From contig DATAUW010000012.1 in NCBI GenBank assembly GCA_036268055.1, positions 62,001-126,000 of the forward strand: a stretch of DNA of 64,000 nt. Direction: 5' to 3'. Within the stretch, counting starts at the first letter, position 1, and every line of letters starts with the position of its first letter. Positions 51,923-54,516 of this stretch are shown here, piece after piece. The translations under genes and the position numbers were made by a program. This DNA is from Verrucomicrobiia bacterium. GTDB taxonomy: Bacteria > Verrucomicrobiota > Verrucomicrobiia > Limisphaerales > Pedosphaeraceae. The notes beneath the pieces were generated by a model. That model did not search any database. It saw nothing but the letters and a program-made list of their open reading frames with translations, and had not been told where the DNA came from.

Positions 51923-53791
51923 TTACGGTTTCCAGATCATTTCGGCGACGGATTTGCCCGCCGGGATGAACGGAAGCACGTGCTCGGTGTAGGGCACGAT
52001 CACGTCCAGCACGTACGGCTGGTCAGAATCGAGCATGCGCTGCAAGGCCGCGCGCAAATCTTTTTTATACATCACGCGTTCGCAAGGCACATTGAACGCC
52101 TTGGCCATCGTGATGTAATCGGGATAGATTTGTTTCATGTTCTCAGGATCGCCGAGGTAGGTGTTGCCCCGGTTGCCCTGATAGAACTTGTCTTCCCATT
52201 GCACCACCATGCCGAGATGCTGGTTGTTCAAGATGAGCGCCTTCGCGGCGATTTTTTCGATGTGCGCCGTGGCAAGTTCCTGCACGTTCATCAGGAACGA
52301 ACCGTCGCCGTCAATGTCCACCACTTGCTGGTTGGGGCACGCGACCTTCGCGCCGAGCGCGGCGGGATAACCGTAGCCCATCGCGCCGAGGCCCGCGCTG
52401 GTGAGCAACTGCCGCGGGAATTTGTATTTGTAATATTGCGCGGCCCACATCTGATGCTGGCCCACGCCGGTCGTGATGATCGCGTCGCCCTTGGTCAACT
52501 CATACAACATCTCGATCGCCATCTGCGGCAGGATCACTTCGCTTTCCTTGCCGGTGAGATGATCCTTCATGTGCTGCGACGTCACCACTTCTTCCGTCAC
52601 GCGATAGCTGAACGGCGCCTTGGCTTTCCAATCGGCAACCTGCTTTTCCCACGCGGTAAATTTTTTCGTGATCGCGCGTTTGCGGACAAGCGCATTGAGC
52701 CGCTCCAACGCATATTTGATATCGCTCACGATCGGCAAATTTGCCGGCTTGTTTTTGTTGATTTCGGACGGGTCCACGTCAATGTGAACAATCGTGCCGC
52801 GCTCGCAAAACTTTTCCACCTTGCCCGTCACGCGATCGTCAAAACGCACGCCGAACGCCAGCAACAAATCCGCTCCCGGCGCGATGAGTTGCGGGATCTC
52901 CGCGTCCGATTTCTTCGGCGCGAATTCCCCGCTCACCGCCCAATTCGCGTATGCCGCGCCGTGCATCCCGAGCCAGCGCAACGACAGCGGATGCGTCTCC
53001 GGGAAACAACCACAACCCATGATCGTCGTCGTCACCGGAATCTGCGTCGCCTCCGCGAACTTCAACAACTCCGCGCTCGCCTCGCCGCTGATGATGCCTC
53101 CGCCCACATAAAGCAACGGCCGCTCGGACTTCTCGATCAAGCCGATGATCTCATTCAACTCAATATCACTCGCCTGCTTGAGCGGTTCGTAACCACGCAA
53201 ATGAATCTCCGTCGGATACACCGGTTGCGCCTTCGCCTGCTGAATATTCTTCGGCACATCCACCACCACCGGACCCGGACGCCCCGTCTGCGCGATATAA
53301 AACGCTTCCTTGATCACCCGCGGAATATCATTGATATCCGTCACCAGATAACTGTGCTTCACGATCGGCAACGTCATCCCAAAAAAATCGGTCTCCTGAA
53401 AACCGCCCTTGCCAATCATCGCCTGCGGCACCTGCCCCGTGATCACCACCAGCGGGATCGAATCCATATACGCATCCGCGATGCCCGTCACCAAATTCGT
53501 CGCCCCCGGCCCACTCGTCGCCATGCACACCCCCGCGCGCCCGCACGCCCGCGCGTAACCCTCCGCCGCGAACGCCCCGCCCTGTTCATGGCGCGGGAGA
53601 ATCGTGCGAATCTTCGACTTCGTCAACGCCTGGTGGAACTCCATGCTCGCCCCGCCCGGATACGCGAAAATCGCCTCCACCCCCTCGCGCTCCAGACACG
53701 CGATCACGATCTCACTACCCTTCATCGCCGGGCCCACCTCAGCCCGTTTGCGGGTGGAAGCTTTTCTATCAGACAACAATGTTTTGCTCAT
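51923..53791 (-). CDS. ilvB: Acetolactate synthase, large (catalytic) subunit
   Basis: A 622-residue thiamine-diphosphate enzyme condensing pyruvate with pyruvate or 2-ketobutyrate, the first common step of valine, leucine and isoleucine synthesis. The N-terminal domain has [16 protein letters not shown] and the catalytic Glu in [35 protein letters not shown] and [15 protein letters not shown] follow. The ThDP/Mg motif is [15 protein letters not shown]...NNQHLGMV. The start ATG at 53791 adds a basic, Ser/Lys-rich N-terminal tail. A small regulatory subunit gene (ilvN) is not adjacent. The 160-base leader carries an attenuator and a valine-rich peptide. Confidence 0.96.
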
Positions 53792-53831
53792 TTTATTATT
53801 TAAGTTGAAGCCGGTCGGCGCGAGTCACAAT

Positions 53832-53866
53832 AAAAAACCCACGACCGTTGCCAGCCGTGGGTTTTT
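53832..53866 (-). terminator. ilvB attenuator terminator
   Basis: On the minus strand AAAAACCCACG pairs with CGTGGGTTTTTT, giving a stem of 7 bp plus A-T extension and a T6 tract. It lies between the leader-peptide stop (53880) and the ilvB ATG (53791), where termination would prevent ilvB transcription. Confidence 0.85.
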
Positions 53867-53879
53867 GTCGAAATCCGTT

Positions 53880-53951
53880 TTAGCCTCGACAAGCCCCGGC
53901 CACGCCGCCTACTACGACGACTACCAGGACCTGTTGAACATTTTTAATCAT
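53880..53951 (-). CDS. ilvB leader peptide (attenuation)
   Basis: A 23-codon ORF, MIKNVQQVLVVVVVGG followed by VAGACRG and TAA. Codons 8-14 (GTC CTG GTA GTC GTC GTA GTA) give Val-Leu and five further valines, the end products of the pathway. Its stop is 14 bases before the terminator hairpin. A second hairpin, TTGTCGA with TCGACAA, overlaps the stop region and runs into the terminator's 5' A-tract, a candidate competing structure. Ribosome stalling on valine codons when charged tRNA-Val is scarce should favour read-through into ilvB, as in the enterobacterial ilvB leader. There is no Shine-Dalgarno, and the probable mRNA start is only a few bases upstream, so translation may be leaderless. 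Confidence 0.8.
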   Translation of the reverse strand: MIKNVQQVLVVVVVGGVAGACRG

Positions 53952-53961
53952 TACGCCACCC

Positions 53962-53990
53962 ATCCTACCCAACCCGCGCCCGACCGTCAA
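53962..53990 (-). promoter_or_regulatory. Sigma-70-type promoter of the ilvB leader
   Basis: On the minus strand TTGACG is separated by 17 bases from TAGGAT. Transcription would start about 7 bases further, within a few bases of the leader-peptide ATG at 53951. Confidence 0.7.
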
Positions 53991-54059
53991 CCCCCAATAT
54001 TCCACCACAAACCCCACTAATTCCAAGCCCACAACGTAAATCAACCCATAATACGGCAG

Positions 54060-54213
54060 GGCGGAGCGGCGGAGATGGCGTGCCGGGTTAGTGAGTTGGG
54101 AGGCGGAGTTGTGGTGCGTTTATGAAGGGGTGTGGCGGTTTTTAGGATCCCGCAACCTCAAGGGTTGCGGGGCGGACGGCGGACCGGCAGGTCCGCCGTA
54201 CCAAGTTAGTGGT
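54060..54213 (+). repeat. Intergenic direct repeat, copy 1 (family B)
   Basis: The block runs from GGCGGAGCGGCGGAGATGGC to CAAGTTAGTGG and includes hairpins CCGCAACCTCAAGGGTTGCGG and GGCGGACC...GGTCCGCC. A second copy lies at 54517-54662; the last 70 bases are almost identical. Confidence 0.8.
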
Positions 54214-54417: not shown

Positions 54418-54516
54418 GTTCTTTCGTCCCGTGGTTGACGGGACTTGGATGGAATGGGAATTCGACCCAGCAATAAATTGCTGGGCTAAGGTCTGCCGTC
54501 CCTGTCGGGACTTTGG
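54418..54516 (-). repeat. Three-hairpin palindromic repeat, copy 2 (family A, inverted)
   Basis: Read on the minus strand it matches the copy at 39546-39640: AGTCCCGACAGGGACGGCAG, CCCAGCAATTTATTGCTGGG, then CAAGTCCCGTCAACCACGGG. Loop sequences differ while stems are kept. Confidence 0.75.

Follow-up and report, generated by a model that had tools for sequence, protein, structure and literature searches.

The acetolactate synthase gene ilvB of a Verrucomicrobiota bacterium is preceded by a short leader that is very likely (probability about 0.92) a ribosome-mediated transcription attenuator sensing charged valyl-tRNA and, to some degree, leucyl-tRNA. This reading is founded on the sequence, its conservation, selection at the codon level, competing helices and a folding geometry resolved codon by codon. 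The leader lies in a stretch of 64,000 nucleotides (here called the window), with all its parts on the minus strand running from 53990 to 53832 (Table 1). The product of the controlled gene, a biosynthetic enzyme that matches TIGR00118 with 689 bits (cut-off 538), catalyses the first step common to the formation of valine, leucine and isoleucine. Amino-acid attenuation of ilvB had been proposed in an earlier note on this DNA; it is supported by the conservation of the valine codons, the terminator and the competing helices, and by the existence of a leucine-coded version ahead of leuA.

Table 1. Features of the ilvB leader region and of the leucine-coded leader in the same genome
Feature	Position	Strand	Basis or remark
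Promoter TTGACG-17-TAGGAT, sigma-70-type	53962..53990	-	sequence, promoter scan, relatives
Leader ORF, 23 codons, MIKNVQQVLVVVVVGGVAGACRG (then stop)	53880..53951	-	homologous ORFs in 85 order loci
Control codons GTC CTG GTA GTC GTC GTA GTA (Val, one Leu)	53910..53930	-	Val conserved in relatives
Segment 1 (protector), UUC-A-ACAGGUCCUGGU	53923..53938	-	MFE pairing with segment 2; relatives' consensus CGACAAG
Segment 2, GCCGGGGCUUGUCGAG	53885..53900	-	partner is segment 1 or segment 3
Segment 3, UCGACAA-AAA-CCCACGGC	53854..53871	-	CCCACGGC part doubles as terminator 5' arm
Intrinsic terminator (segment 3:4), AAAAACCCACGGCUG-GCAA-CGGUCGUGGGUUUUUU	53832..53866	-	sequence, folds, relatives
ilvB, acetolactate synthase large subunit, controlled gene	51923..53791	-	profile match
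Leu-rich leader (L174 / L211)	G000:C19:65224-65345		leuA at 65498

The promoter, the open reading frame (ORF) with its run of leucine and valine codons and the stem with T6 that the earlier note had listed were all recovered ahead of ilvB, exactly as described. The ORF opens with ATG at 53951 and closes with TAA at 53882-53880, and an intrinsic terminator, as attenuators have, stands between it and the structural gene, with a 15-bp stem (53866-53852 / 53847-53833), T6 at 53837-53832 and a gap of 40 bases from the end of the T6 (53832) to the start of ilvB (53791). The hairpin TTGTCGA/TCGACAA (53892-53886 / 53871-53865), noted earlier as overlapping the stop codon, does exist and encloses that codon in its loop; it is, however, not a separate element but the core of the antiterminator formed by segments 2 and 3. 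The earlier parts list, sound in every element it named, omitted the hairpin of segments 1 and 2, the leuA counterpart and how closely the start codon follows the promoter. Compared with 200 dinucleotide shuffles, the folding energy of the leader (-56.2 kcal/mol) has a z-score of -5.8, and a promoter scan returned two promoter-like sites against 0.3 expected. A simple terminator scan did not report the ilvB leader terminator, though both its stem and its T-run are evident from the sequence and the folds. On the plus strand, upstream of the ilvB region, lies an Acido-Lenti-1 RNA (RF01687, 45.7 bits, 54466-54512).

The leader ORF is probably leaderless, to judge from its start codon, which lies 10 nt past the -10 box and has no Shine-Dalgarno motif, and from the same arrangement in relatives. 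Among the latter, TTGAC occurs in 81-82 of 83 well-scored promoters, the promoter spacer is 17 nt long in 60 of 84, and the start codon falls 6-10 nt past the -10 hexamer in 72 of 84 leaders (mode 7), a distance that with the usual start-site spacing would leave a 5' UTR of 0-4 nt. An alternative to this step only is that the attenuator is real and its translated leader belongs to a longer transcript begun further upstream, as might be read from the 12 of 84 leaders whose start codon lies over 10 nt past the -10 box. It is rather unlikely, given that 93% of leaders have TTGAC-17-TAnnnT scoring 8 or more at a fixed distance before the start, compared with 3.6% of random anchors, and that Shine-Dalgarno-like motifs occur in only 4 of 84 leaders, a number not above that of a control stretch (7).

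Conservation was examined by searching 196 genomes of the order and reading the DNA upstream of ilvB at 92 order-level loci, which include a few near-duplicates and two named relatives (Verrucomicrobiales bacterium and Verrucomicrobia subdivision 3, at 70-74% identity). The whole device is kept ahead of ilvB in about 90 of these 92 upstream regions, so that the leader is not a product of chance; a lack of the peptide or terminator in close relatives, which the earlier note had named as speaking against its reading, is the opposite of what was found. A clean leader ORF and terminator were extracted at 85 of the 92 loci, and the leader was recognised by eye in L116, L145, L156, L149 (which contains N) and L128 (where the contig end cuts it). 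The ilvB leader is degenerate in L142 (genome G193) and absent in L161 (genome G072), and these two natural losses could be used for comparing ilvB regulation. Valine codons, terminator and competing helices are conserved over several dozen of the order's families. A covariance model, for which 66 leaders were used, gave matches adjoining ilvB in order genomes outside its training set (G060, G113, G051, G034, and G068); in a phylum-wide sample it had no match at E 1e-6 beyond the order, and in distant ilvB regions (Opitutae, Verrucomicrobiaceae and others; L035-L042, L053) no such terminator was found. Lower-scoring matches of the model within the own genome (L175, L176, L178-L180) had no comparable leader, and most of them resemble ordinary terminators.

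The homologous ORFs of the 85 loci are 23-33 codons long, with start codons chosen by a rule that prefers a length of about 25 codons; they carry the marks of two kinds of selection. When codons are numbered backwards from the stop, those at 11, 12 and 13 encode valine in 69, 80 and 71 of the 85 leaders, respectively, and codon 14 encodes valine or leucine in 73. At codons 11-13 the first two bases are nearly fixed (codon-position entropy 0.25-0.8 bits) and the third is free (1.2-1.6 bits), which indicates selection for valine itself and agrees with the run of pathway-product codons in a short, presumably translated ORF that an attenuator would need. At codons 3, 4, and 7 before the stop, which lie inside segment 2, the third base is constrained (0.6-0.9 bits), a sign of selection on the RNA; downstream of the valine run the codons are kept constant as nucleotides by their part in the competing pairs 1:2 and 2:3. 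The distance from stop codon to terminator is 21-24 nt in 81 of the 85 leaders.

In the minimum free energy structure segment 1 pairs with segment 2 (53938-53923 with 53900-53885), beside the terminator (3:4). Segment 2, with the consensus GCCGNNGGNNCTTGTCG, may take as its partner either segment 1 (CGACAAG, in the early part of the ORF) or segment 3 (TCGACAAG..CCCACGGC, past the stop), and since these two have an identical short sequence they compete for it. The combination of 1:2 and 3:4 has 91.5% standard pairs, and nine core pairs of the terminator are retained in 99.3% of cells (66 sequences). In the 2:3 structure 80.9% of the pairs are standard, and the cells changed on both sides number 20, where shuffles give 7.8 (none of 500 as high); when the partner is shifted by 1-3 columns, the pairing falls from 81% to 27-48%. 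As the 2:3 helix and the others were defined after the consensus had been seen, and the sequences are related, these counts support the pairing and do not prove it. RNAalifold applied to the leader alignment found the terminator alone and not the competing helices, an outcome expected because the structures are alternatives, and for this reason the competing helices were counted explicitly. The leader has a mutually exclusive antiterminator (2:3) and protector (1:2), the antiterminator being favoured kinetically only.

The bearing of ribosome position on these alternatives was modelled by folding the RNA downstream of the ribosome for each A-site codon, with free RNA starting 12 nt past the first base of that codon and segment 4 excluded. 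Across the 85 leaders upstream pairing holds the terminator arm in 0% when the ribosome is at the stop codon, in 13% at codon 9, 54% at codon 10 and 92% at codon 11, and in 93-100% at codons 12-15, so that the rise in antiterminator availability coincides with the 3' end of the conserved valine run (codons 11-14). In the own genome the antiterminator formed on a stall in the run is GCCGGGG-C-UUGUCGA..UCGACAA-AAA-CCC-A-CGGC. According to these folds, a stall at the control codons would expose segment 2 and a ribosome at the stop would hide it. When the last nine codons were synonymously recoded the arm was still occluded in 84% of cases against 93% observed, so the occlusion measure by itself is not very specific; the paired state of the recoded sequences was weaker by about 6 kcal/mol (-18.3 vs. 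-24.6 kcal/mol). When the complete leader is folded to equilibrium, the terminator prevails even if the ribosome is stalled (mean probability 0.92-0.97), and stalled and released states separate only while segment 4 is not yet made. Since equilibrium favours the terminator whatever the state, antitermination has to operate kinetically, which is the accepted view of other attenuators.

A working model of the ilvB leader can be drawn from these elements. Transcription would begin at the leader ATG or a few bases from it, so that a ribosome could load on the 5' end and trail the RNA polymerase. With sufficient valyl-tRNA the ribosome would reach the stop codon and cover segment 2, whereupon segments 3 and 4 would pair and the terminator would halt transcription 40 bases short of ilvB. 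With valyl-tRNA scarce it would stall in the valine run and cover segment 1, leaving segment 2 (GCCGGGGCUUGUCGA) free to pair with segment 3 (UCGACAA..CCCACGGC) before segment 4 exists; the 5' arm of the terminator would then be sequestered and transcription is predicted to read through into ilvB. If no ribosome were loaded, 1:2 would pair and the terminator would prevail. Expression of ilvB would thus be expected to respond to valine.

The second match of the covariance model in the own genome is a leucine-rich leader, MIRNLNLDLLLNVLLGRAAGGF, with a TTGACC promoter and a terminator of its own, a design like that of the ilvB leader. The gene behind it encodes a leuA-type isopropylmalate synthase that scores below the curated family cut-off, so the name leuA rests on similarity. 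Among the leuA genes of this type that were sampled in the order, most have a leucine-rich leader ahead of them (e.g., MNRNLNLLLSKALLLAGAAVGF and MNGNLNARLLLLNALLLSGAAVGF). Judged by their codons, the valine run at ilvB and the leucine run at leuA are what attenuation by pathway product predicts, and the leuA leader appears to serve as an internal specificity control for the ilvB attenuator.

A conserved, structured 5' leader with a terminator ahead of a biosynthetic gene, and conserved at the nucleotide level outside the valine run, might also be a ligand- or protein-sensing element (a riboswitch, a T-box or the ppGpp riboswitch that precedes ilvB elsewhere), with the short ORF there only incidentally. 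This is very improbable in view of the valine codons, which are kept at the amino-acid level with their third bases free, of an antiterminator availability that follows ribosome position, and of the leucine codons that replace valine in the leuA leader. Nor does Rfam provide a relevant family: a scan of 53700-54100 for riboswitches, T-boxes and known leaders gave nothing at gathering score and nothing relevant at E up to 5, the best scores (L10_leader, E 0.23; His_leader, E 0.29) reaching about half the required bits. Least credible of all is that the ORF, conserved in almost all sampled genomes and with a C-terminal GxCR resembling a peptide motif, encodes a functional small hydrophobic peptide that the terminator merely separates from ilvB, as its N-terminal residues vary freely, its length and hydrophobic run vary while the spacing from ORF to terminator is almost always the same, and segment 2 accounts for the C-terminal motif (third bases under constraint, double changes together with the non-coding segment 3).

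Attenuation of ilvB, as preferred here, may have counterparts elsewhere in the class. In other orders (L191, L192, L193, L196, L197, L198, and L199) ORFs rich in valine, isoleucine and leucine, with terminators of the CCCACGG..CGTGGG type, lie ahead of a class I SAM-dependent methyltransferase that stands alone; the five members compared with one another are 32-58% identical, and two that were scanned reached no NCBIfam cut-off. One genome with such a methyltransferase leader (G320) also has a Val/Ile/Leu-rich leader ahead of ilvB (L190). Another acetolactate synthase-like gene has its own terminator in genomes G465 and G503 (L201 and L202), and in L202 the leader ORF, MKFNLLVVLVKVVVVVVASNESARA, apparently belongs to an independent or much diverged attenuator. 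It is conceivable, if somewhat doubtful, that leaderless attenuators of this kind (valine for ilvB, leucine for leuA and valine/isoleucine for the methyltransferase of other orders) form a class-wide set that is a main means of branched-chain regulation in Verrucomicrobiota; in that case ribosomes would load directly on the 5' ends of the leaders, and an unexpected methyltransferase would join the branched-chain regulon.

The ilvB leader would extend branched-chain leader-peptide attenuation to Verrucomicrobiota on comparative evidence that is unusually clear, with a single ORF of 25 codons displaying separate selection at the amino-acid and RNA levels, and one genome holding two parallel leaders, valine for ilvB and leucine for leuA. 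The conserved RNA is missing from Rfam and is a candidate new family, and its apparently leaderless start is a distinctive trait that bears on ribosome-polymerase coupling at attenuators.

Leader-peptide attenuators are known from the enterobacterial ilvBN and ilvGMEDA operons. These share with the present leader a Val/Leu-rich peptide and alternative antiterminator and terminator hairpins before an acetohydroxy acid synthase gene; they differ in having ordinary 5' UTRs with ribosome-binding sites and no recognisable sequence relation to it (no Rfam match). According to a survey of 2010, leader-peptide systems had until then been known only in Proteobacteria and Actinobacteria, to which Firmicutes were added (PMC2965389). 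No earlier description of such an attenuator in Verrucomicrobiota was found in open-access full text, a scope that makes this weak evidence; the one paper there that names the phylum together with leader peptide and attenuator is on EF-P and has each term only once or twice (PMC11611912). The Corynebacterium ilvB-II motif, for which attenuation is backed by reporter assays, likewise combines an uORF rich in branched-chain codons with a terminator before ilvB, but is a genus-restricted RNA of other sequence and controls an ilvBNC operon, whereas no ilv gene follows ilvB within the window (PMC10272879). The ilvB-OMG and Leptospira ilvB motifs, for which attenuation is likewise only predicted, also place a structured RNA and a predicted branched-chain-rich uORF before ilvB (PMC10272879); the Rfam scan matched no such family, insofar as Rfam includes both motifs. 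Leaderless short ORFs acting as attenuators have a precedent in the mycobacterial polycysteine ORFs, described as amino-acid-specific (Canestrari et al., 2020, as cited in PMC9031893), which differ in amino acid (cysteine), genes and phylum, the leaderless start of the ilvB leader being deduced from promoter spacing only. In layout a comparison can be made with the ilvB1NC attenuator of M. tuberculosis, where ribosome position on a uORF with the control codons LVVI selects antiterminator or terminator and the terminator also ends about 40 nt before the gene (U-tract end +126, ilvB1 start +168), although that system belongs to another phylum and has fewer control codons (PMC13236596). The attenuation mechanism is a known one, and the lineage and the RNA family are apparently new.
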